This document shows, piece after piece, positions 2,770 to 44,783 of a stretch of 64,000 nt of DNA. The stretch's first letter is position 1. The number at the start of each line of letters is the position of its first letter. Made by a program: the position numbers and the translations under genes. The notes under the pieces are model-generated. The model ran no database searches and was not told the origin of the DNA. It worked only from the letters and a program-made list of their open reading frames with translations. Where the stretch lies: positions 1 through 64,000 of IMG/VR virus record IMGVR_UViG_3300009506_000011. One strand, given 5' to 3'. Origin of the DNA: a virus.

Positions 2770-3192
2770 CTAAAGCGCAAAACCGAGGTAGTGGACGTGG
2801 AGCCGCTTGCCACCAAGCTCGCGCGGGATCTGGGCGTGCTGCGCTCGGGTGGTGAGCAGGATCAGCTCGCGCACCTCGGGGTAGTAGGCATAGCGGAGCA
2901 GCTGCCTGGTGACCGCTGTGACCGCGCCAGCGACCTTGACCTCGATACCGATGCCCCGCGGCTTCGGCGGTCCGCGAAACGGTAGCATAGCGCGCAATGC
3001 GAGCCGTTGCTGCTCCTCGGGAGGTACCACGAAGAAGTCGATCCGGTCCTGCTTCAGCTGGAACTCGCGTAGAAAGTGAATGCCCGCTTCGCGAAGCACC
3101 ACGGCAATCCCCGCTTGCAGCTCGGCTTCGTTGCTGTGGTTGAAGCGCCGGCCTTCGAGCGCGAGCTTGATGCGGTCAATCATGCCATTCAC
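2770..3192 (-). CDS. PD-(D/E)XK nuclease-like protein
   Basis: A 140-residue protein whose pattern fits a minimal PD-(D/E)XK fold: an early Glu in NEAELQAGI, then DRIDFFV and, after a loop, GIGIEVKVAG, giving a D-x(n)-ExK arrangement, followed by a helix (TAVTRQLLRYA). Such domains occur in phage resolvases and repair nucleases. Enzyme activity is inferred from motif spacing only. It overlaps the neighbouring gene by 4 nt. Confidence 0.6.
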   Translation of the reverse strand: MNGMIDRIKLALEGRRFNHSNEAELQAGIAVVLREAGIHFLREFQLKQDRIDFFVVPPEEQQRLALRAMLPFRGPPKPRGIGIEVKVAGAVTAVTRQLLRYAYYPEVRELILLTTRAQHAQIPRELGGKRLHVHYLGFAL

Positions 3193-3838: not shown

Positions 3839-4314
3839 CACGCCACCCTGCCGAAGTACGCTTCTGCAGCCTCGCGCAGCTCCTGGTAGTAGCCGGGCCA
3901 CGCCTCCGCGCTCCGGATGGCGGCGATGAGACGGTCACGAGAATCGCCGCACGAGGCTGCCCGGACGCTCGCCAGCTCCCGGAGCAGCTGAGCCGTCAGC
4001 TCGACGAGGTGCTCCCGGCGGCTCAGCTCGTGCGGATTCCCCTGCTGCGGCATCGTGGCCACCTGCCGCGCGATGCGTTCGATGTCATCGGCGGTCGCCT
4101 CATCGCGCCACCGTTGCAGCGTGTTGAGCGCCGGCGCGCCGGGTTCGGCCGCTGCCGGCTCGAGACAGCATGCCTTGACATGCGTGCGGAGAACCTCACC
4201 GCCTACTCCCCAAACGACGACGACATCTCCGTCCTTGTCCTCGTCGGAAGCGGCCACCATGAGCGGCCCCGTCCCCGTCTTCAGCCTGACAACCCTACCC
4301 TTCAGCCTTTGCAT
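3838..4314 (-). CDS. hypothetical protein, beta-barrel-like N-terminus
   Basis: The 158-residue protein starts MQRLKGRVVRLKTG at 4314, behind a purine-rich GAGGTGAGAG site. Its first 50 residues alternate like a small beta-barrel (GRVVRLKTG..., DGDVVVVWGVGGEVLRTHVKACCLEP); the remainder is helical. The start lies inside the end of the small zinc-ribbon-like gene. Function unknown. Confidence 0.6.
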   Translation of the reverse strand: MQRLKGRVVRLKTGTGPLMVAASDEDKDGDVVVVWGVGGEVLRTHVKACCLEPAAAEPGAPALNTLQRWRDEATADDIERIARQVATMPQQGNPHELSRREHLVELTAQLLRELASVRAASCGDSRDRLIAAIRSAEAWPGYYQELREAAEAYFGRVA

Positions 4315-33534: not shown

Positions 33535-34037
33535 TGGCCGGCCTCGGCCAGAGCGTCCACGATCAGGACGACGGCTCGCACGTAGGCGCCGCCGTCGCCA
33601 GCGAGTGCGAGCCGGCAGGTCTCCACCAGCGCAACGTCGCAGTGCTCGGCCGCCTCCTGCTGCAGCGCTGTGATGCGGTCGTGGTCAATCGCCTCGGGGT
33701 CGAAGTCTCCGGCGTACCAGAGCGAGTAGAGCGACGAGGCGCTGCGTCGCCGGGCGCTATCCGTGGGGAGGCGCCAGCCGAAATCGAGGTGAGCGGCGCC
33801 GAGCTCGGCGACCGTCTCCCCGGTGCTGAGGTACGCCTCCCCAGTCTCCTCGGCGTACCAGGCGTAGCGACCGTCGGCGCAGCGCTTCGCGGCGAGAACC
33901 TCGACGCCGCGAGCGAGCGCCGCCTCAAAGGGACCGGTCCACTCGGCGGTGAGCTCCGCGTCCGTGTCAGGATCGCAGTAGGCGTAGGTCAGGGTTACGA
34001 CGCGGCTTGGCCGCAATGCCAGCTCGAGGGTCAGCAT
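33531..34037 (-). CDS. hypothetical protein
   Basis: A 168-residue protein from ATG 34037 (MLTLELALRPSRVVTLTYAY). It contains a short segment shared in style with other small proteins here (RYAWYAEETGEAYLSTGETV). The helical C-terminus has two Cys. Overlaps the upstream gene by 7 nt. Confidence 0.55.
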   Translation of the reverse strand: MLTLELALRPSRVVTLTYAYCDPDTDAELTAEWTGPFEAALARGVEVLAAKRCADGRYAWYAEETGEAYLSTGETVAELGAAHLDFGWRLPTDSARRRSASSLYSLWYAGDFDPEAIDHDRITALQQEAAEHCDVALVETCRLALAGDGGAYVRAVVLIVDALAEAGQ

Positions 34038-34492
34038 GACGTCCAACCTCCGTCGGCGTGAACCCATCCGCGCCGGCGCTCACCGTCGAAAACCTCGCCG
34101 TCGTAGCCGAGCTCAGCCGCGCGCGCGGCCGCGTCCTCGACGGAGCCAAAGCGCTCGTCGCTCACATCCGGCGGCGGCGCCTCGTCGTCCGGTGACGAGG
34201 TGAGCGTGAGCGCCAGGGGCAGGAGCACCACCCAGGCGTCCGGCTCACGCTGGTAGAGATCCTCGGCCATGGCATTGACCAGCTCGGCAATCTCATCGTT
34301 AGCAGCGACGCCGAAGCCATCGACCCAGCTGCGATCGGTTTCGCGGCCGACTTCAACGGTGACATCGGGCCAGCGCGCCTTGATGCGCCGCTCCAGCTCC
34401 ACGCAAAAGCGCGTGTGCGACGCCTCCAGGTCGACGCCGTCCCAGCCGTCGCCGTAAAGTGAGTCTTGCAGCTGTCCGTAGAAAATATTCAT
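34031..34492 (-). CDS. hypothetical protein, first gene behind structured RNA leader A
   Basis: A 153-residue acidic protein (MNIFYGQLQDSLYGDGW). ATG 34492 lies behind AGGAG at the end of a conserved structured leader (34493-34571). Central VNAMAEDLYQREPDAWVVLL and the C-terminal DGEVFDGERRRGWVHADGGW give no family. Confidence 0.6.
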   Translation of the reverse strand: MNIFYGQLQDSLYGDGWDGVDLEASHTRFCVELERRIKARWPDVTVEVGRETDRSWVDGFGVAANDEIAELVNAMAEDLYQREPDAWVVLLPLALTLTSSPDDEAPPPDVSDERFGSVEDAAARAAELGYDGEVFDGERRRGWVHADGGWTSC

Positions 34493-34571
34493 CGTATTCT
34501 CCTGCGGAGGGCGGCTCCGCGTGCCTCGTCAGCGCCGGCGCGACCCGGCGGACGCCTCACGGCGTTTCGGC
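34493..34571 (-). ncRNA. structured RNA leader, copy A
   Basis: It begins GCCGAAACG, then a GNRA hairpin (ACGCC-GTGA-GGCGT), CCGCCGG, a GCGCC/GGCGC region, GACGAGGCA and a final stem GCGGAG/CTCCGC that abuts the AGGAG ribosome site. CTCC of that stem could instead pair with the GGAG of the ribosome site. Two further copies lie at 37202 and 38318. Confidence 0.6.
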
Positions 34572-34634
34572 TCTTTCGAGTGTCACGGCTTTCGCCGGCC
34601 TATGGCATGGCACACCTCCTCTCCTGTGTCCCCC
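34572..34634. other. gap between leader A and the LexA-like gene
   Basis: This 63-nt gap contains no further open frame or obvious promoter. The promoter for leader A should lie here, but no good -35/-10 pair is visible. Confidence 0.4.
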
Positions 34635-35183
34635 TCACACAATGCGCTGCACGACGTCGTAGCTGACGCACGCCAGCGCGGCGATCTCGTAGCGCGTATA
34701 GCCTGCCTCGTGCAGGCAGCGGACCATCTTCTGTTGCCGAGCCGACAGCGTACCGGGGCGGCCGGTGCGCACGATCCGCCGGCCGTCCGGTCCGCGCAGC
34801 ACTCGGATGTGCCGCCGGCCAGGCCGCGCCGGTCCGAGCTCCACGTAGCCGTGCCGCTCCAACGTTTGGAGGTGCGCCATGATCTGGCCATCTCCGGCTA
34901 CCTGCAGCTGCTCGGCCAACTCACTCAGCGACGGCGAGCGACCGGCGCGCCGCTGGTACTCGATCACCAGCTCGAGCAGCTGCCGCCGGCGCTCACTCAG
35001 TGGCCGCTTCGGCGCGAAGGTGTCCGGCCGCACCAGGGTGATCGTGGAGCCGCACCGGCAGTTTCGCTGCTCGGCTACCTCGCCAGCATCGAGCAGCTCG
35101 GGGTCGACAGCGCCGACGAGCGGCAGCCGGCGCCACGCTGCGCGGCTGTAGGAGGCTCCGCAGGAGCACGTCACGGCGCTCAC
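34635..35183 (-). CDS. LexA-type winged-helix regulator with zinc-like N-terminus
   Basis: A 182-residue protein from GTG 35183 (GTGA overlap). Domain 1 has CSCG and CRCG (possible zinc ribbon). Domain 2, residues about 65-125, matches the LexA DNA-binding domain: PSLSELAEQLQVAGDGQIMA, then HLQTLERHGYVELGP. Domain 3 is a short helix-turn-helix (LSARQQKMVRCLHEAGYTRY, then EIAALACVSYDVVQRIV). There is no LexA protease domain, so cleavage-based SOS control is unlikely. Confidence 0.65.
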   Translation of the reverse strand: MSAVTCSCGASYSRAAWRRLPLVGAVDPELLDAGEVAEQRNCRCGSTITLVRPDTFAPKRPLSERRRQLLELVIEYQRRAGRSPSLSELAEQLQVAGDGQIMAHLQTLERHGYVELGPARPGRRHIRVLRGPDGRRIVRTGRPGTLSARQQKMVRCLHEAGYTRYEIAALACVSYDVVQRIV

Positions 35184-35425
35184 GCTGTCGCCTCGTAAAT
35201 AGCTCGCACGCGGCGCCAAGTCCGCTGCGTGATGCGGCCGCCGTCGCCGTCGCGATAGAACCGACGGTAGCTACCGTCGGCACGCAGCACGCCAGCGTAG
35301 CCGTGCTCGCGCGCGTATCGGCGCGCATTCGACCACGGCGATCGGCCGCCGCCACGCCAGTCGGCCAGGACCCGGATCGCGCCGGTGCGTCGCACGGTGA
35401 TGGTGATATCGATGTCGTCGCTCAT
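35180..35425 (-). CDS. small basic hypothetical protein
   Basis: An 81-residue protein from ATG 35425 (MSDDIDITITVRRTGAIRVL). Probably an AP2/integrase-like three-stranded sheet with a helix (SPWSNARRYAREHGYAGVLR), which could bind DNA, but the resemblance is weak. Coupled to the LexA-like gene by a 4-nt overlap. Confidence 0.5.
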   Translation of the reverse strand: MSDDIDITITVRRTGAIRVLADWRGGGRSPWSNARRYAREHGYAGVLRADGSYRRFYRDGDGGRITQRTWRRVRAIYEATA

Positions 35426-35427
35426 GC

Positions 35428-35883
35428 TCACTCCGCTGCGGCAGCTACGAGCTGCCGTGCAAAAGGCGCGTCCTGTGCGCCGAGGTAATCTCGCCAGGTG
35501 TCGTCCGCGGTGGGGTAGTCCTCGCTCGAATAGGCCAGGTCGTCGAGCAGGCGACCGTACTGCGCAGCGGCGGCGACCACGGCGCGCCAGGTAGCGCCGT
35601 CGGCAATCACGCGGTAGCCGGTCACGATCCACCGCACCGCGTACTCGTCGCGGTCCGGCTCGGGACTGAGGCGGCCGCTCAGCTCGACCAGCTGGTCGCC
35701 GTCCTGCACCGCCATCGAGTAGTAGCGCGTGTAGCGCGCCAGCTCGAGCAGGCTGGTGCACGCGCTCACGCCGAGCGGCTGCGTGGCCGAGGACTCGTCG
35801 TCCGCGGTCCAGCCGTCAGGACGGTGCGGATCGAGCATCGTGGCGAGCGGCTCGCCAGCGGGGTGGATGCGATAGGCAATCAC
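35428..35883 (-). CDS. hypothetical protein
   Basis: A 151-residue acidic protein from GTG 35883 (VIAYRIHPAGEPLATML). LLELARYTRYYSMAVQDGDQ and a C-terminal helix with DDLAYSSEDYPTADDTW give no family. GTGA overlap with the upstream small gene. Confidence 0.55.
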   Translation of the reverse strand: MIAYRIHPAGEPLATMLDPHRPDGWTADDESSATQPLGVSACTSLLELARYTRYYSMAVQDGDQLVELSGRLSPEPDRDEYAVRWIVTGYRVIADGATWRAVVAAAAQYGRLLDDLAYSSEDYPTADDTWRDYLGAQDAPFARQLVAAAAE

Positions 35884-36029
35884 GACTGCACCTGCCTGCG
35901 ACCGATGAGCTTGCCGCTCGGACCTACCTCGGCGCGGTAGAGCTTGCCACCGCGACGATAGGTCACTACGGTGCCTACGCGCGCGGAGGAGTAGCGGTTG
36001 GAGCGGTCGGTTTTGCTGTTGTGTGCCAT
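35880..36029 (-). CDS. small basic protein
   Basis: A 49-residue ORF (MAHNSKTDRSNRYSSARVGT, ending GKLIGRRQVQS). The SH3-like beta pattern (VVTYRRGGKLYRAEVGPSGK) and coupling to the next gene support it. First gene of the leftward operon ending at 34635. Confidence 0.55.
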   Translation of the reverse strand: MAHNSKTDRSNRYSSARVGTVVTYRRGGKLYRAEVGPSGKLIGRRQVQS

Positions 36030-36082
36030 GCCAGCCTAATGTGCACGATCTATGCCAGATGTTCGAGTCGTTGGCATAGCAC
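36030..36082. promoter_or_regulatory. divergent intergenic region with inverted repeat
   Basis: TATGCCA and TGGCATA form a 7-bp inverted repeat across about 17 nt between divergent genes, a possible operator. No consensus -35/-10 pair is clear. Confidence 0.35.
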
Positions 36083-36391
36083 GTGCCCAAGGCCACCAAT
36101 ATGATTTTTGCAGCAGCCATTGAGGCGGCGCAGCGTGAGCTAGCGCTGCGATATTACGACGATCCTGGACGCGAACCTGCGCCGGTGGAGCTGGCGCTTG
36201 AGCAGCAGCTGCTCGGCCTGCAGCGGCTCGCGACACTGTACCGCCGGCACCGGCACGATCCGGAGGCTGTAACAGCGGCGCTCGGCCTCACGGCAGCGGC
36301 GCTGCAATTACACTCACAGTGTAGAGCGCAAATCCTGCACGCGGTTTGCGCAGTCCGGCAGCTGCTAAATGCGCGGAACCTGGCGAGCTAG
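36083..36391 (+). CDS. hypothetical helical protein
   Basis: A 102-residue protein starting at GTG 36083 (or ATG 36101). It is almost wholly helical and Ala/Leu-rich (VELALEQQLLGLQRLATLYR; LTAAALQLHSQCRAQILHAV). Function unknown. Confidence 0.5.
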   Translation: MPKATNMIFAAAIEAAQRELALRYYDDPGREPAPVELALEQQLLGLQRLATLYRRHRHDPEAVTAALGLTAAALQLHSQCRAQILHAVCAVRQLLNARNLAS

Positions 36392-36547
36392 CCATGCCAC
36401 GGTCGGCGTTCAAGCGGTCAACGCGCAATTCTTGCACCTGAACGCGGCGCCGGTGCAGGAATTGCGCGCAGCTCATAGCGCGCTATGCGACTTTCAGCAG
36501 GTTTTCGCAGCTGGATAGTTGGCACGGAACGTGCAAAATCGCCTGGC
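36392..36547. repeat. 157-nt gap with a 17-bp inverted repeat and a 14-bp palindrome
   Basis: CGCGCAATTC-TTGCACC (36422-36438) and GGTGCAGGAATTGCGCG (36452-36468) pair over 17 positions with a single T-G wobble around a 13-nt loop. CATAGCGCGCTATG (36474-36487) is a perfect palindrome six bases later. They suggest a regulatory site or RNA for the rightward genes. Confidence 0.7.
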
Positions 36548-36973
36548 ATGCGACTTTACCTCTACGACATCGATACCTGCGAAGAGCTGGCTTCCTACGC
36601 GCTGGACGGCACCAGCGAAGCTGGAATCTACAACGGCCGCCGCTACATGGACACGTGCCTCGGCTACACGATTCGCGAAGGCCGGAAGGTACGCGTCCTC
36701 CGCGCGGAGGACTTCAGCGGCCGCCGGATCGTCGCCAAGGATTGGTCGCCGTGCACTGGCGATGGCCGGCGGCGGCCTGGCGGCTGGAGCGAGTGGACGC
36801 TGCTCGTCAGCCGTGAGCGCGGCTGGCAAGGCAACGAGGCTGACGTGCCTGGCGGCACGCCGCACGCGGAGCTACCACCGCGCCTGCAGCAGCTGCTGGC
36901 TCGCGTGAAGCGCGAGAACGCCAAGCGCGGCCGAGCCTATCGGCGCGCCGTAGCCGAGGCGGTGGCGGCGTGA
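36548..36973 (+). CDS. hypothetical protein
   Basis: A 141-residue protein (MRLYLYDIDTCEELASYALD). An in-frame ATG at 36485, inside the palindrome, shares the bases ATGCGACTTT with the start used here, so the true start is uncertain. The centre (RYMDTCLGYTIREGRKVRVL) is beta-rich and the C-terminus basic. Family unknown. Confidence 0.55.
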   Translation: MRLYLYDIDTCEELASYALDGTSEAGIYNGRRYMDTCLGYTIREGRKVRVLRAEDFSGRRIVAKDWSPCTGDGRRRPGGWSEWTLLVSRERGWQGNEADVPGGTPHAELPPRLQQLLARVKRENAKRGRAYRRAVAEAVAA

Positions 36974-37200
36974 GGACCGCCTACCTGAACGTGCTGGTGT
37001 CGCCAGCTGGCCAAGCTGTCGAAGCCAACGTGAGCCGGCATCCGGCGGCGGAGCTGCCGCCGGTGCGGTACCGCACCGGCATTCACCGGCACCGGCTGGT
37101 GTTGGTGCTGGAAGGCCGGACGCTGCTCGACGCGCACGAGGCTGCCTTGCGCGCCTGCCAATCGACCGAGCTAGCGTGGCTGCTGCCACTGCTCGGATGA
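36970..37200 (+). CDS. small hypothetical protein
   Basis: A 76-residue protein from GTG 36970 (GTGA overlap). MRTAYLNVLVSPAGQAVEAN, then a strand-turn-strand (HRHRLVLVLEGRTLLDAHEA). No recognised family. Confidence 0.5.
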   Translation: MRTAYLNVLVSPAGQAVEANVSRHPAAELPPVRYRTGIHRHRLVLVLEGRTLLDAHEAALRACQSTELAWLLPLLG

Positions 37201-37201
37201 C

Positions 37202-37292
37202 GCCGAAACGCCGTGAGGCGTCCGCCGGTCGCGCCGGCGCTGACGAGGCACGCGGAGTCGCACTCCGCACTCCGCCCACCGAAAGAAACACC
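37202..37292 (+). ncRNA. structured RNA leader, copy B
   Basis: Nearly identical to copy A over its first 60 nt (GCCGAAACG, the GTGA tetraloop hairpin, GCGCCGGCGC, GACGAGGCA). The last stem is GCGGAGT/ACTCCGC, with changes on both sides relative to copy A. A second CTCCGC follows; the ribosome site here is weak (GAAAGAAA). Confidence 0.6.
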
Positions 37293-38318
37293 ATGAAGAT
37301 CCGAGTTATCGTAGACCAGAAAACCGCACTCCGAGAAGGCATCGACGCGCCGACGAGCGCCTGCCTGATCGATATCGATCCTGCCGAGCTGACGGAGGAG
37401 GAGCGCGAGGTGCTCGCGTCCCTGCTCGCGTCCAACCACGACACCACCGCGTCGACACTGCAGGCCGCGTACGGTCAGTACCGCCATCTCGAGGTGGTGT
37501 CGCAGGACCTCGGCGGACTTCGGCGCGGCCTCGCCGATCTGATCGCCTGGCGTGACCAGGTGCAGGCCGAGTGCATCGAGAAGCGTCGCGAAGCGGACGA
37601 TCGGATCGACGCCGCCATTGCAAACCCGCCGCCGCCGCGCCGGCAGCTGGTCCGGCTGTCCGGCGGCGGCGTCATCGACGCCTACAGCGAGGACGAGACC
37701 ACGATGGCGCTGGAGCTGCCGAGCGCGCCGGCGCCCGGCTACCTGCCTCACGCCTCCGAGGAGGCGCAGGAGCGGCTGTCGGCCGCGCGGCGCGCTGTCG
37801 ACTTGGAGGAGGCGCGGCTGCGCGAGGCTGCGCGACCGGAGCTTGAGCGGCTCGTCGCCGCTCGCGACGAGAAGCGCCGTCTCGCCGAGGAGGCGAAGCA
37901 GGCCGAGTACAACGCCGTCTACCAGCGCCTGCCGGTGATCCTGCGCGAGCGGCACAGAGCCGGCTACGCCTCTCCTGGCGAGGTCCGACTTGCCTTCCAG
38001 CAGCAGGTGCTGGCCGACACTGGCCAGGAGCTGGATCCTTGGTGCACGGCCGAAAATGCCAGCTCCGGAGAGCTGGCATGGCTGAGCAACGACGAGTTCC
38101 TCGCGCTCCAGCGCGCTCGCGCGGCTGCGCCTCCCGGCGCCACAGTGACGCCGGCGCTGATTTGGCTGAGCGAGCGGAGGCCAGCCACCGAGGCGGAGCT
38201 CGACGACGACCTGGCCGACGAGGACGACGAGATCGAGGAGCGCATCGACGAGAGGCGCGTGTTTCTCGTGCGGTGGACGGTCGGCGGCGTGCCGATCACC
38301 GCCGTCGTGCCCATGTAG
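37293..38318 (+). CDS. hypothetical coiled-coil protein behind leader B
   Basis: A 341-residue protein from ATG 37293 (MKIRVIVDQKTALREGIDAP). Residues 155-205 form a long charged helix (ARRAVDLEEARLREAARPEL); residues 300-325 are acidic; the end is beta-rich (VFLVRWTVGGVPITAVV). It may be an internal or DNA-associated protein. The longest gene in this small-protein region; no family recognised. Confidence 0.6.
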   Translation: MKIRVIVDQKTALREGIDAPTSACLIDIDPAELTEEEREVLASLLASNHDTTASTLQAAYGQYRHLEVVSQDLGGLRRGLADLIAWRDQVQAECIEKRREADDRIDAAIANPPPPRRQLVRLSGGGVIDAYSEDETTMALELPSAPAPGYLPHASEEAQERLSAARRAVDLEEARLREAARPELERLVAARDEKRRLAEEAKQAEYNAVYQRLPVILRERHRAGYASPGEVRLAFQQQVLADTGQELDPWCTAENASSGELAWLSNDEFLALQRARAAAPPGATVTPALIWLSERRPATEAELDDDLADEDDEIEERIDERRVFLVRWTVGGVPITAVVPM

Positions 38319-38409
38319 CCGAAACGTTGCCGCGCGAGCGGCGGCGTCCACCGGTAGCACCGTGTGCCGATGATGGCAGAGCGAGGTAGCTCCTCGCAGG
38401 AGGACAATC
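38318..38409 (+). ncRNA. structured RNA leader, copy C
   Basis: Shares GCCGAAACG, CGTCCACCGGT and a GATGATGGCA block with copies A/B. The first hairpin is longer (ACGTTGCCGC-GCGA-GCGGCGGCGT, ten pairs with two G-T) but keeps the ACG...CGT base and a GNRA loop. The last stem is GCGAGG/CCTCGC. CTCCT of that stem can instead pair with the AGGAG ribosome site 3 nt away. Leader begins inside the upstream stop codon. Confidence 0.6.
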
Positions 38410-38943
38410 GTGATCATCACCACCTCGGCGGTCACCGCCGATCCCAACGACACCTATCAGCCGTACCGGATGCGGCTCGCTTTCGCGCCGTCAGGCCAGT
38501 ATGCCGGCAGCTCCGCCACGCTGGATCTGATCGCCTATTACTCGGAGTACAGCGACACACACGAGCTGCACGGTCCCTACTGGCAGCTCGAATGCAACGC
38601 CCCGGCCTGCGAGCGGCCGGCGGTTTTCCGCGGTTCGCGAGACGAGCTGGCCGAGCTAGCCATGTGGTGGCTCGCTCGATTCGCCCCCGGACCCTACGAG
38701 GTGCCGGAGGAGCTCGAGGATCTCGCGGACGACGAATCTGCGGACGGCTGGGGATGGTACATCCGCGCTTCTCTCGCCGATCTCGTCGGCGTCCCAGCAG
38801 AGGATCAGTGGCTCGACCGGCGCGAGGCTGGCCGCGACGAAGAGTGTGACTGGCTCGCCGCGTCGGTCAACGACATGGCCGGCTGGCTACGCGGAGCCTA
38901 CGACAGCGCTGGCATGAGCCGTGCCTATGAGGTGCGGTCATGA
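38410..38943 (+). CDS. hypothetical protein behind leader C
   Basis: A 177-residue acidic protein from GTG 38410, 6 nt after AGGAGGA. It is Trp/Tyr/Asp-rich (DLIAYYSEYSDTHELHGPYW; LEDLADDESADGWGWYIRAS) with two Cys near CNAPACERP. No family recognised. Confidence 0.6.
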   Translation: MIITTSAVTADPNDTYQPYRMRLAFAPSGQYAGSSATLDLIAYYSEYSDTHELHGPYWQLECNAPACERPAVFRGSRDELAELAMWWLARFAPGPYEVPEELEDLADDESADGWGWYIRASLADLVGVPAEDQWLDRREAGRDEECDWLAASVNDMAGWLRGAYDSAGMSRAYEVRS

Positions 38944-41500: not shown

Positions 41501-41642
41501 CCTGGACGACGAGCTGTGCGGCGTGCCAGGCGTCTATAATGTCACGTCGCAACCGCATGATGATGGGTGGCACTATATGGTGCTCTGCCTCCCGAGCACG
41601 GCGGCGGAGCACGGATGGGAGCTGACCGACACGCCAGACTAG
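41454..41642 (+). CDS. small hypothetical protein
   Basis: A 62-residue protein (MSHWYATGKRSAGEYDLDDE) overlapping the end of the preceding gene in another frame and, by 4 nt, the convergent ABC/GNAT gene. The composition after residue 20 (VYNVTSQPHDDGWHYMVLCL) is protein-like. Moderate support only. Confidence 0.45.
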   Translation: MSHWYATGKRSAGEYDLDDELCGVPGVYNVTSQPHDDGWHYMVLCLPSTAAEHGWELTDTPD

Positions 41643-42772
41643 CTGGCGTGCCACAGCAGCCGCGCCTGCGCCACCTCCGCTGGCGGCACCGGCCCGCCGA
41701 TGTATCGGAATGACGCGGTCATCTGGGCTAAGCGGGTTTGCGTCGTTTGGTGCCGCCAGTGTATCGCGCGCCGCACCTTGCGCTCGCGCACCATCTCCCA
41801 ATTTGGCGAATGCATCCGCGACGCCACCTGCGCCGGATGGGTGGGGGTCGTGCGCAGGCCGAGCCCGTTGGTCGCGGCGATGGCGCCAATCTTGTCGCTC
41901 AGCGCTGTCCCGATGCCGATCCCCTGAAAGTCTGGCAGCACGACCGTCCGGCTCGTGCGCCAGGTGTTTTTGACGTATCGGTGGGGGAATGGCATCACGC
42001 CGCAGAAGGCTGACGGGGCCCCGTCAATGAGCCCCATGAAGCACTTGGCAGACTTGTTCAGCTCGTGCGTCAGGTAGTGATGCGGAGCGAACCACGGCCA
42101 AGCCGCATGCTCGCAGCGGACGATCTCCAGCTCGATCCGGGGCCGGGGTTGAACCGACCTCCACGTCACAAGGCCGACGTGAGGCGCTGGGCGAGGCTCT
42201 AGGATCCAATCGGGCTGCAGCCACTCGACGAGGTCATCGTGGCAGGAGACTGCCACGAATCGCCGGTTTGACCGGCGCACGTGCTTTGCGACCGCAGCGC
42301 TGCCGATCTGGGCCACCTTCCGGTGGACGACGCTGGTGTACTCGTCGATTGCCACAAGCGGCCGCGGGTCGACCAGTGCTCTGGCGAGGTTGCACCGGAA
42401 GCGCTCGCCGTTGGACAGGACCCGGAACGGACGGAGCCACGCCGGCGGCGACGAGAAGCCCACAGACGACAGAGCCCTGATGACGTTGTCGATGGGCAAT
42501 GCCTCATCAAACTCAGTGACCACGGCGCCGTCGCCCCAGTCGTAACCCTCGATCAGTGCATCGCCGAAGAGGTGCCGGGCAATGCTTGTCTTGCCGCAGC
42601 CGCTCGGGCCGGTAATGAGCCCGATGCTCCACGGCCTCGCGTCGAGGTCCACGTCAGCGCGAATCTCCACCACGCTTTCAGCGGCAGACGGGATGTCGTA
42701 CATTCCCTCCACTTGCTTCACCCGGGCCGTTCGCTCAACGCCCGTCGCAAGCCTCAGATCAACGCGCGGCAT
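41639..42772 (-). CDS. ABC-type ATPase fused to a GNAT-like domain
   Basis: A 377-residue protein from ATG 42772. N-terminal ATPase: Walker A GPSGCGKTSIAR (residues about 55-66), signature-like VLSNGERFRCNLARAL, Walker B PLVAIDEYTSV and a His after VAVSCHD. The C-terminal 170 residues are GNAT-like: WFAPHHYLTHELNKSAKCF, RTVVLPDFQGIGIGTALSDK. This fusion is known from phages and actinobacterial islands. Because Mu Mom, a DNA-modifying enzyme, also has a GNAT fold, a role in base modification is possible but unproven. Confidence 0.75.
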   Translation of the reverse strand: MPRVDLRLATGVERTARVKQVEGMYDIPSAAESVVEIRADVDLDARPWSIGLITGPSGCGKTSIARHLFGDALIEGYDWGDGAVVTEFDEALPIDNVIRALSSVGFSSPPAWLRPFRVLSNGERFRCNLARALVDPRPLVAIDEYTSVVHRKVAQIGSAAVAKHVRRSNRRFVAVSCHDDLVEWLQPDWILEPRPAPHVGLVTWRSVQPRPRIELEIVRCEHAAWPWFAPHHYLTHELNKSAKCFMGLIDGAPSAFCGVMPFPHRYVKNTWRTSRTVVLPDFQGIGIGTALSDKIGAIAATNGLGLRTTPTHPAQVASRMHSPNWEMVRERKVRRAIHWRHQTTQTRLAQMTASFRYIGGPVPPAEVAQARLLWHAS

Positions 42773-43377
42773 GGCCAGCCCAGCTCCTCCAGCTCGCGCA
42801 GCTTTTCGAGCTGGTCCTCTTCGCCCTCGCACTCGACGACGATCGCGAACTGCTTCTGAGCGTCGCCCTGCCTGCGTCGCTGCTTGTTTCGCTCCTGGCT
42901 CTTGTCTGGCTCAGGCTCGATCTCAAGGCTCAGCAGCTGAGCGAACTGCTCCTCCGCGAACCCCAGGTCGAGCGCGTCGCTGACGTCCAGCTCGATGGGG
43001 CGAAGCGCCTCTGCCAGCGCCTCGTCCGTCCAGCTGCCCCGGCGCGTGTAGAGCTGCACCGTCAGCCGGCGCGCCTCGGCCTCGGTGATCCCGTCGAGGT
43101 AGACCGCCGGGCCTTCGAGCAGTCCGACGTCCAGAGCGCAGGTCCAGCGCTGCTCGCCGTCGATGATGACGTTGCGCTCCTCACCCTTTTCGTCCGTGCG
43201 CCAGACGAGCAGCGCCTGCGAGCTGAGCCAGCCCTCCTTCATGAAGCCAGCCTTCATGCTCTCGCGCTCCAGCTCGGTCATGGTGTTGCCATTCCAGCCG
43301 TTGGGCCGGAGCTTCGTCAAATCAACGATCTCAGTCTTGCCGCGGACGTGCGGCTGTCGCTTGCGCTTCTTCGCCAT
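42754..43377 (-). CDS. ParB-like nuclease-domain protein
   Basis: A 207-residue protein. IVDLTKLRPNGWNGNTMTE, LVWRTDEKGEERNVIIDGEQ and RWTCALDVG fit the ParB/sulfiredoxin fold, in which IDGEQRW corresponds to the catalytic G-E-x-R-x-W/H region. Phage ParB-like proteins are nucleases, ATP/CTP-binding proteins or partners of modification enzymes. Start behind GGAGGAGAG. It overlaps the ABC/GNAT gene by 19 nt. Confidence 0.75.
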   Translation of the reverse strand: MAKKRKRQPHVRGKTEIVDLTKLRPNGWNGNTMTELERESMKAGFMKEGWLSSQALLVWRTDEKGEERNVIIDGEQRWTCALDVGLLEGPAVYLDGITEAEARRLTVQLYTRRGSWTDEALAEALRPIELDVSDALDLGFAEEQFAQLLSLEIEPEPDKSQERNKQRRRQGDAQKQFAIVVECEGEEDQLEKLRELEELGWPCRALI

Positions 43378-43627
43378 CTCTCCTCCGTCGAGCCATTGCT
43401 CGTACCGCCGCCAGCCGACGCTCGCGGTCGAGCTGCCAGCGGATCGGCGGATACAGCCTCGCCCATCGCTGTACCGTGCTAGCTGGCCAAGCTAGCTTTG
43501 CCATGTCGCCCCCGGCGCGGCGGATGGCGGCCATGACGAGGCGCCTCGCCGCCGCCTCCCCACGCCTCAGCCGCGCGCCGAGGGACCGGCCGCTGTCAGC
43601 CACTGGAGCTGGCCAGGACGGCATCAT
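43331..43627 (-). CDS. small basic DNA-binding-like protein
   Basis: A 98-residue protein from ATG 43627 (ATGATG overlapping the upstream stop). LVMAAIRRAGGDMAKLAWPA, then STVQRWARLYPPIRWQLDRE looks like a helix-turn-helix of the phage Fis/terminase-small type. Overlaps the ParB-like gene by 47 nt, so the two are coupled. Confidence 0.55.
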   Translation of the reverse strand: MMPSWPAPVADSGRSLGARLRRGEAAARRLVMAAIRRAGGDMAKLAWPASTVQRWARLYPPIRWQLDRERRLAAVRAMARRRRDGEEAQATAARPRQD

Positions 43628-44499
43628 GCCGCGCAGAGCCCCCACGCGACGCAGCTCGGCGTCCCCTCAAAAAACCAGTCGTGCTGCCGGCCGCCGCGGC
43701 TCGTCCGCGCCCAGCTCACCGCCTCGTCGATCGGCCGGTTGGTGCTCTTGATGTCGTCGTCGCGCCGGGCAAGCTCGGCCTTGGTCAGCTGCCGGGAGAA
43801 CATCGTCGGCGGCGTCAACCCGAGGCTGTCGAAGGTCTCTCCCCGCGCCTCATAGCGAAGGCGCGCCGCCTCTTGGACGTCGGCCTCGAGCTGCCGGATC
43901 TCGTCGATGCGCGCGGGATCCAGGTCCGCTACCAGCCGGATCGCCGCCTTGCCAGAGCAGACACAGGGCCAGCAGCCGACACGCTCGGCGCCTTGCAGGT
44001 AGAGAGGGTTGGGCGCCAAACCGTGCCGGCGGTGGATCGCGATGACCTCGTCCTTCGTCCAGTCGATGATCGGCCGCCATACCTCGACATCTCCCCACGC
44101 CAAACGACCGCGTGGCACGTCACGCTCCGGCAGCTTCGCGCGGCGGCGGGACTCCTCGCGACGCACGCCTACCGCGTTGACGACGTGATCATCAAACCGT
44201 GCCATCCAGGCCGCCATCGGCTCAAGCTTGAGTGTGCGCGTACACCATCTCATGCGGGGCGTACGGCTGGGAAACATGCCTTTCTTGCGGCACCAGTCGG
44301 CAAAGCCGCCGCCGGGCGAGCGCACCACGTCGATCTGGCCGAGCTTGTCCTGCAGCGGTCCCAGCACGTACTCGACGGTGGACGGGTGCTCCCATCCCGT
44401 GTCGGCGAAAACCCGCAGGTGCTCGATGCCTTGCTCCAGCAGGTAGAGGCACGCAGCGGCGCTGTCCTTGCCGCCGCTCACGCTCACAATCGTGGTCAC
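43624..44499 (-). CDS. PAPS-reductase/ATP-pyrophosphatase family protein
   Basis: A 291-residue protein from GTG 44499. PP-loop VSVSGGKDSAAACLYL (residues 5-20), then RVFADTGWEHPSTVEYV, WCTRTLKLEP, GVRREESRRRAKLPE, IIDWTKDEVIAIHRRHGLAP and a Cys pair GCWPCVCSG. These features match the phosphoadenosine phosphosulfate reductase/DndC-like group, which adenylate or reduce sulfur compounds and often modify nucleic acids. Co-operon with ParB-like and ABC/GNAT genes suggests one modification pathway. Confidence 0.85.
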   Translation of the reverse strand: MTTIVSVSGGKDSAAACLYLLEQGIEHLRVFADTGWEHPSTVEYVLGPLQDKLGQIDVVRSPGGGFADWCRKKGMFPSRTPRMRWCTRTLKLEPMAAWMARFDDHVVNAVGVRREESRRRAKLPERDVPRGRLAWGDVEVWRPIIDWTKDEVIAIHRRHGLAPNPLYLQGAERVGCWPCVCSGKAAIRLVADLDPARIDEIRQLEADVQEAARLRYEARGETFDSLGLTPPTMFSRQLTKAELARRDDDIKSTNRPIDEAVSWARTSRGGRQHDWFFEGTPSCVAWGLCAA

Positions 44500-44783
44500 T
44501 GCACCCCCGGCAGATGAAGCAGCAGCCGCAGCCAGGCCGGGGTTCGGCGCGCTTCCCGCGCCATCCGCGCTCGTCTGGCTGGACTGCTGTCCGTCAACGC
44601 CTCATGCCAGCACTGTCGCCGCCGTTGCAGCTCCTGGCGGACCTTGAAGGTAAGCCACGCTTCTAGCCACTTGAGCAGCGCGCCAGCACGCGGTCCGCGG
44701 TTTTCTAGACGCGGGCGGGAATCGAACCCGCCCCCGGGACTGGAACCCGGGGCCCGCCATCGGGCCGCGTGCTGGCGCTTCAT
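44496..44783 (-). CDS. possible leaderless ORF over the tRNA-like element
   Basis: A 95-residue frame from ATG 44783, 6 nt after a good -10 box. The first 35 residues (RWRAPGSSPGGGFDSRPRLE) are what a tRNA-like sequence gives when translated; residues 35-95 (LLKWLEAWLTFKVRQELQRR) look protein-like, and the stop overlaps the PAPS gene start (GTGA). Either this is a real small protein or the transcript start serves the RNA alone. Confidence 0.35.
   Translation of the reverse strand: MKRQHAARWRAPGSSPGGGFDSRPRLENRGPRAGALLKWLEAWLTFKVRQELQRRRQCWHEALTDSSPARRARMAREARRTPAWLRLLLHLPGVQ
44680..44778. repeat. 14-bp perfect inverted repeat enclosing the tRNA-like element
   Basis: GCGCCAGCACGCGG at 44680-44693 is the exact reverse complement of 44765-44778, with 71 nt between. 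Confidence 0.85.
44708..44771 (-). ncRNA. compact 64-nt tRNA-like RNA
   Basis: On the minus strand five paired parts join with no spare nucleotides. They are acceptor CACGCGG/CCGCGTC (6 of 7 pairs), a D-like hairpin CCCG-ATGG-CGGG, an anticodon-like arm CCCCGGG-TTCCAGT-CCCGGGG (loop would read CCA, tryptophan) and a T-arm GCGGG-TTCGATT-CCCGC. The normal D-loop and variable loop are missing. It is in sense orientation with the PAPS/ParB operon, and a promoter starts transcription about 12 nt upstream. Confidence 0.5.

Follow-up and report, generated by a model that had tools for sequence, protein, structure and literature searches.

Three leader RNAs in a phage genome, situated ahead of the genes that start at positions 34492 (minus strand), 37293 and 38410 of the 64,000-nucleotide stretch analyzed here (the window; positions 1 to 64,000 of the 84-kb IMG/VR virus record IMGVR_UViG_3300009506_000011), are, judging from their sequences, almost certainly type II hammerhead ribozymes, a known class. 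Each leader (hereafter A, B, and C) reads in the order GCC-GAAA-C...G-TC-(hairpin)-CYGAYGA-(T)GGC, which is that of a hammerhead core in the type II arrangement, with stem II open and stems III and I closed by loops. The CUGANGA-type core (CTGACGA) and the GAA are exact in A and B, and the core of C (CCGATGA) has a single deviation, U4C, plus an extra U. All three copies contain A...UC, corresponding to the A15.1-U16.1 pair and a C at H17, the predicted cleavage site. Loop-closed stems I and III with an open stem II are present in the minimum free energy (MFE) fold of A and B and in model alignments of all three copies, and the hammerhead junction is the MFE fold of the full A and B leaders. 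The conserved fold, the core, the covariation in relatives, and the genomic placement are supported directly by the analysis; the class is an ordinary one, to which the analysis adds modest new detail.

Copy A occupies 34523..34571 on the minus strand, as defined by RF02276, by model R1 (see below), and by the MFE fold, and is composed of stem II GCC/GGC, GAA, stem III ACGCC-GTGA-GGCGT, C17, stem I CGCCGG-GTCGCG-CCGGCG, and the core CTGACGA. Alignment of H17 places the predicted cut between C 34551 and C 34550, which would create a new 5′-end 58 nt ahead of the ATG at 34492. The near-identical copy B lies on the plus strand at 37202..37249 by the same three lines of evidence, with stem II GCC/GGC, a stem III with a GTGA loop (ACGCC-GTGA-GGCGT), stem I CGCCGG-TCGCG-CCGGCG, and the core CTGACGA; its cut is predicted between C 37222 and C 37223, 70 nt ahead of the ATG at 37293. 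Copy C (38318..38377, plus strand; RF02276 and model R2) has the variant core CCGATGA+T, stem III ACGTTGCCGC-GCGA-GCGGCGGCGT, and stem I CACCGG-TAGCA-CCGTGTG with a bulged U. Its cut, predicted between C 38348 and C 38349 with an activity that may be low, would leave a 5′-end 61 nt ahead of the GTG at 38410. An earlier note on this DNA had described the leaders as three copies of one structured element, and that description holds: the window contains exactly three occurrences of GCCGAAACG, one at each leader, the GNRA-loop hairpins are those listed above as stem III, and the motifs CGTCCRCCGG and GAYGA(T)GGCA lie where the note had placed them, as does a last hairpin ahead of the start codon.

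At its own cut-off, Rfam reports nothing in the window. In a permissive search, the top three matches in the window were A, B, and C, all to RF02276 (Hammerhead_II), at 31.1, 28.4, and 27.1 bits, and a search with RF02276 only over the 84-kb record returned them with E-values of 7.6e-6, 3.9e-5, and 8.8e-5, respectively. No further hammerhead stands out in that record, the next RF02276 match having E = 0.09, and the Rfam searches of the window gave no match to a riboswitch or to a hepatitis delta virus (HDV)-like ribozyme. Two covariance models were built from relatives with the window excluded. Model R1, from 47 short-loop copies with normal cores, finds B at 58.2 bits (E = 1.3e-12) and A at 51.4 bits (E = 7.5e-11), and matches C at E = 1e-3 despite its normal-core training set. 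Model R2, from 34 relatives having the core of copy C, finds C at 37.9 bits (E = 4.4e-8), a score that owes part to the core letters by which its 34 sequences were fetched. By the E-values of RF02276, R1, and R2, a structured, conserved RNA in three copies before genes is thus far above chance, as the earlier note had proposed. The note had recognized no known class and had named a match to a known family as what would refute its view; the leaders match both RF02276 and models derived from other phages, which overturns that view on its own terms.

The survey of relatives on which these models draw was pattern-seeded, with approximate frequencies, and parsed at least 404 distinct copies across all retrieved loci, compared with 3 in reversed sequences. 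As the earlier note had suggested checking, the stems covary in these relatives. In the R1 alignment, 98.9% of cells are paired and there are 155 two-sided changes, against 41 in shuffles; the alignment of C-type cores, with a pseudoknot between loop I and the tail included, has 161 against 56. None of 500 shuffles reached the score in either case, and slid controls were far lower than the real alignments for both sets. The covariation is not a product of the stem filter, because 328 of 350 primary-sequence-pattern matches pass the stem test though unselected for stems; most of the listed failures are stems with a mismatch or bulge. Since A and B are near-identical, little evidence of covariation comes from these two alone. 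Folding energy was set aside as evidence, its z-scores being unremarkable because the sequence is GC-rich.

Several observations weigh against the assignment. All three copies score under the Rfam gathering cut-off of 37 bits, which is a database threshold and not a structural feature. Stem II of A and B is without the fourth pair that relatives have, and the loop I/tail pseudoknot of these copies amounts to a possible CGCG/CGCG pairing only. The MFE fold of the C leader is not a hammerhead, and C joins two core deviations to a bulged stem I and no evident pseudoknot. No relatives of the flanking 341-aa protein (between B and C) or 177-aa protein (after C) were found in viral contigs. Because stem I is bulged and the pseudoknot is not clear, low activity of C is quite possible, and this copy may be slow or dead. 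Features of this kind would also be expected of hammerhead relics, in which the fold was inherited and one or more copies, C likeliest, no longer cleave. The short stem II of A and B and the combination of U4C, extra U, bulge, and unclear pseudoknot in C fit such a history, as does the considerably lower in vitro activity of a viroid hammerhead carrying U4C, which nevertheless supported infection (noted in PMC3088659). We regard relics as a real but unlikely alternative, given that the core is intact in A and B and that the core of C is found well beyond this phage.

The core of C reads C-C-G-A-U-G-A-U, with C in place of U4 and the extra U between A9 and G10.1. This exact string occurs in hammerhead context in 47 IMG/VR stretches, from which stem checks leave 40 distinct phage sequences, and in these relatives both the stems and the loop I/tail pseudoknot covary. 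Recurrence of the exact variant in ~40 distinct phage sequences with covariation argues that the core of C is not private decay. Among copies found incidentally, ~9% have C4. Relatives with just the extra U are very common, and C4 without the extra U is also found, 15 of 17 pattern matches passing the stem test. A coupling of U4C to the extra U was considered from the raw counts (47 versus 17 stretches) but rejected, as incidental copies number 2 to 3 with the extra U and 6 without it.

The earlier note had compared the last stem with riboswitch expression platforms; the corresponding rival reading is a new riboswitch or ligand-controlled leader in which this stem regulates access to the ribosome site. 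Part of this can be seen in the sequence. The last hairpin of A, GCGGAG/CTCCGC (34504..34520, minus strand; sequence and fold), is followed directly by the Shine-Dalgarno (SD) sequence AGGAG (34503-34499), with which its CTCC could pair instead, and that of C, GCGAGG/CCTCGC (38381..38397, plus strand; sequence and partial fold), is followed directly by the SD sequence AGGAGG (38398-38403). Both leaders thus offer the CTCC(T) in this hairpin two possible partners, the 5′ arm of the hairpin and the SD. Copy B has a hairpin as well, GCGGAGT/ACTCCGC (37252..37268, plus strand; sequence and fold), without competition between hairpin and SD. The hairpins that vary yet stay paired are thus present, but they lie 3′ of the conserved element, and those of A and C are not conserved in relatives: a 6-bp hairpin is found in 10% of 349 relatives' tails (6% when shuffled) and an anti-SD CTCC in 2.9% (2.6% when shuffled). 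At or near the shuffled level, the last hairpin was rejected as part of the element, and neither it nor the anti-SD can be counted as a conserved part. The genes downstream have no common metabolic theme, nothing points to ligand sensing, and a conserved ligand domain joined to a conserved expression platform was not found. The hammerhead fold and core account fully for the conserved part with no ligand needed, making a riboswitch exceedingly improbable.

The placement of relatives relative to genes is informative about function. Taking gene starts and stops at these loci from our own open reading frame (ORF) calls, the ribozymes lie in the sense orientation of the genes: a long upstream frame ends within −12 to +3 of stem II in 277 of 398 copies, whereas the opposite strand gives 12 of 377. 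Once related flanks are clustered, 125 of 183 copies still abut a stop codon. The start codon lies a median of 27 nt past the ribozyme. The 5′ slack to the upstream stop has a median of 1 nt, whereas the distance to the SD has a median of 15 nt, and where the gap is longer, the added length lies on the 3′ side only (r = 0.95, versus 0.15 for the 5′ side). In the window, the stop TGA (37198-37200) is one base ahead of stem II of copy B, and the G of the stop TAG (38316-38318) upstream of copy C is itself the first stem II base; B and C flank a single gene, that for the 341-aa protein. Copy A, ~60 nt past a LexA-like gene (34635-35219), is not stop-anchored. The stop-codon anchoring rule was not found in Perreault 2011 (PMC3088659), in which the term "stop codon" occurs 0 times.

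Since the type II form leaves hairpins at the ends and the copies stand between genes, the best reading of their role is that they divide polycistronic phage mRNA between genes, a role that we consider probable, with cleavage in vivo inferred. Once transcribed, each ribozyme would break the RNA of which it is part, on the 3′ side of the C following stem III. This would give an upstream mRNA terminated by the stem III hairpin, for B and C just past the upstream stop codon, and a downstream mRNA whose 5′-hydroxyl end carries the stem I hairpin, 58 to 70 nt ahead of the next start codon. Long transcripts of the phage would in this way be split into gene-length pieces that are separately stable and separately translated, the hairpins presumably protecting the new RNA ends, and cuts at both B and C would free the 341-aa gene as a one-gene mRNA. 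For tandem prophage hammerheads of this kind, cleavage has been assayed and mRNA processing proposed (Perreault 2011, PMC3088659). The tight stop anchoring and its one-sided slack could also mean that active hammerheads serve mainly in translational coupling, with terminating ribosomes covering stem II and the GAA and so delaying cleavage while the upstream gene is translated. Genome compactness with a hairpin set just past the stop would give the same placement, however, and neither copy A nor all of the copies in two Streptomyces phages described below (L324/L325) abut a stop, and we think coupling as the main role doubtful. More speculative still is the notion that processing is both stop-anchored and gated by terminating ribosomes, with the recurring slow core (U4C plus an extra U) serving at sites that call for slower or conditional cutting.

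Type II hammerheads are abundant in IMG/VR phages, often with several per operon; among the matches listed in the IMG/VR hammerhead-pattern scan are contigs with up to 8 copies in a few kb. Every copy is on the same strand in 65 of 67 multi-copy loci, and arrays of 5 to 11 hammerheads in a few kb on one strand occur at L018 (3300038412_000035), L079 (3300036851_000550), L010, and L124. A search of viral contigs for the exact A/B-type pattern found none. Relatives differ in loop I. The loop I/tail pseudoknot is present in 81 to 88% of long-loop copies, versus 23 to 27% with exchanged tails, and in 10% of short-loop copies, versus 6%; A and B, with a loop I of 5 to 6 nt, fall in the short-loop subgroup. 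The RF02276 model recognizes long-loop copies and mostly misses short-loop ones: it passes just three of the L018 copies and none from L009, so that most L018 and all L009 copies fitting the motif are lost at its cut-off. The short-loop subgroup (L009, L018) is common among phages and has a 4-bp stem II whose outer pair covaries (G-C/A-U). Close relatives also occur, unannotated, in the cultured Streptomyces phages phiRKBJ001 and Wentworth (L324/L325), with several per 8 kb located before genes (3998-4051, 3075-3129, 2275-2340, and 1-57 in L324; 3998-4051, 2468-2533, and 160-214 in L325), one hammerhead in each having a C4 core. Matches were also found in host genomes, among them those of Streptomyces, Planctomycetota, and Proteobacteria.

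The genes around the three copies gave little by homology. The gene after A (34031..34492, minus strand; 153 aa) has no significant family match, the gene before B (36970..37200, plus strand; 76 aa) has no match in PHROGs or PADLOC, and neither the gene between B and C (37293..38318, plus strand; 341 aa) nor that after C (38410..38943, plus strand; 177 aa) has a family match. Genes for a tail sheath, a tape measure protein, baseplate J, and a RecT-like protein in the 84-kb record identify a contractile-tailed phage. The protein encoded directly upstream of copy A (34635-35219, minus strand) has a LexA-type DNA-binding domain and is possibly a phage regulator. Other genes of interest in the window encode an ABC-type ATPase fused to a GNAT acetyltransferase domain (41639-42832, minus strand; phrog_11143, E = 8e-93) and a phosphoadenosine phosphosulfate reductase-like protein (43624-44499, minus strand), possibly involved in DNA modification, near which lies a ParB-like/DNA methyltransferase-like protein (42754-43377). 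At 44707-44772 (minus strand) there are weak tRNA-like Rfam matches under the cut-off (mascRNA, 26 bits; tRNA-Sec, 22 bits), and ARAGORN finds no tRNA there.

The role of phage hammerheads is a long-open question. The present analysis disposes of a false riboswitch lead. It also makes clear that a short-loop subgroup common among phages is missed at the RF02276 cut-off, and the stop anchoring, the recurring U4C-plus-U core, and the copies in cultured phages (phiRKBJ001 and Wentworth) make that role easier to test. Among known systems, the HDV-like theta ribozymes of gut phages are likewise small self-cleaving RNAs in phage genomes; according to PMC10879173, they differ in having another fold and a tie to tRNA-based recoding, and the window contains no HDV-like match. 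Core-variant hammerheads, both the phage variants in PMC3088659 and the viroid U4C that it cites, share with copy C natural deviations at core bases, some of them still active. Copy C is set apart by having both U4C and an inserted U, within a phage hammerhead of type II, a pair that we did not find described in the open-licence literature searched. The closest counterpart is the type II hammerhead itself (RF02276; PMC3088659). Relative to it, the A/B subgroup has a 5- to 6-nt loop I, mostly no loop I/tail pseudoknot, and a low Rfam score, and C has U4C and the extra U after A9. Common to both are the open stem II, the hairpin stems I and III, the GAA and CUGANGA core, the A15.1-U16.1 pair, cleavage (here predicted) after C, and the occurrence of several copies between phage genes.

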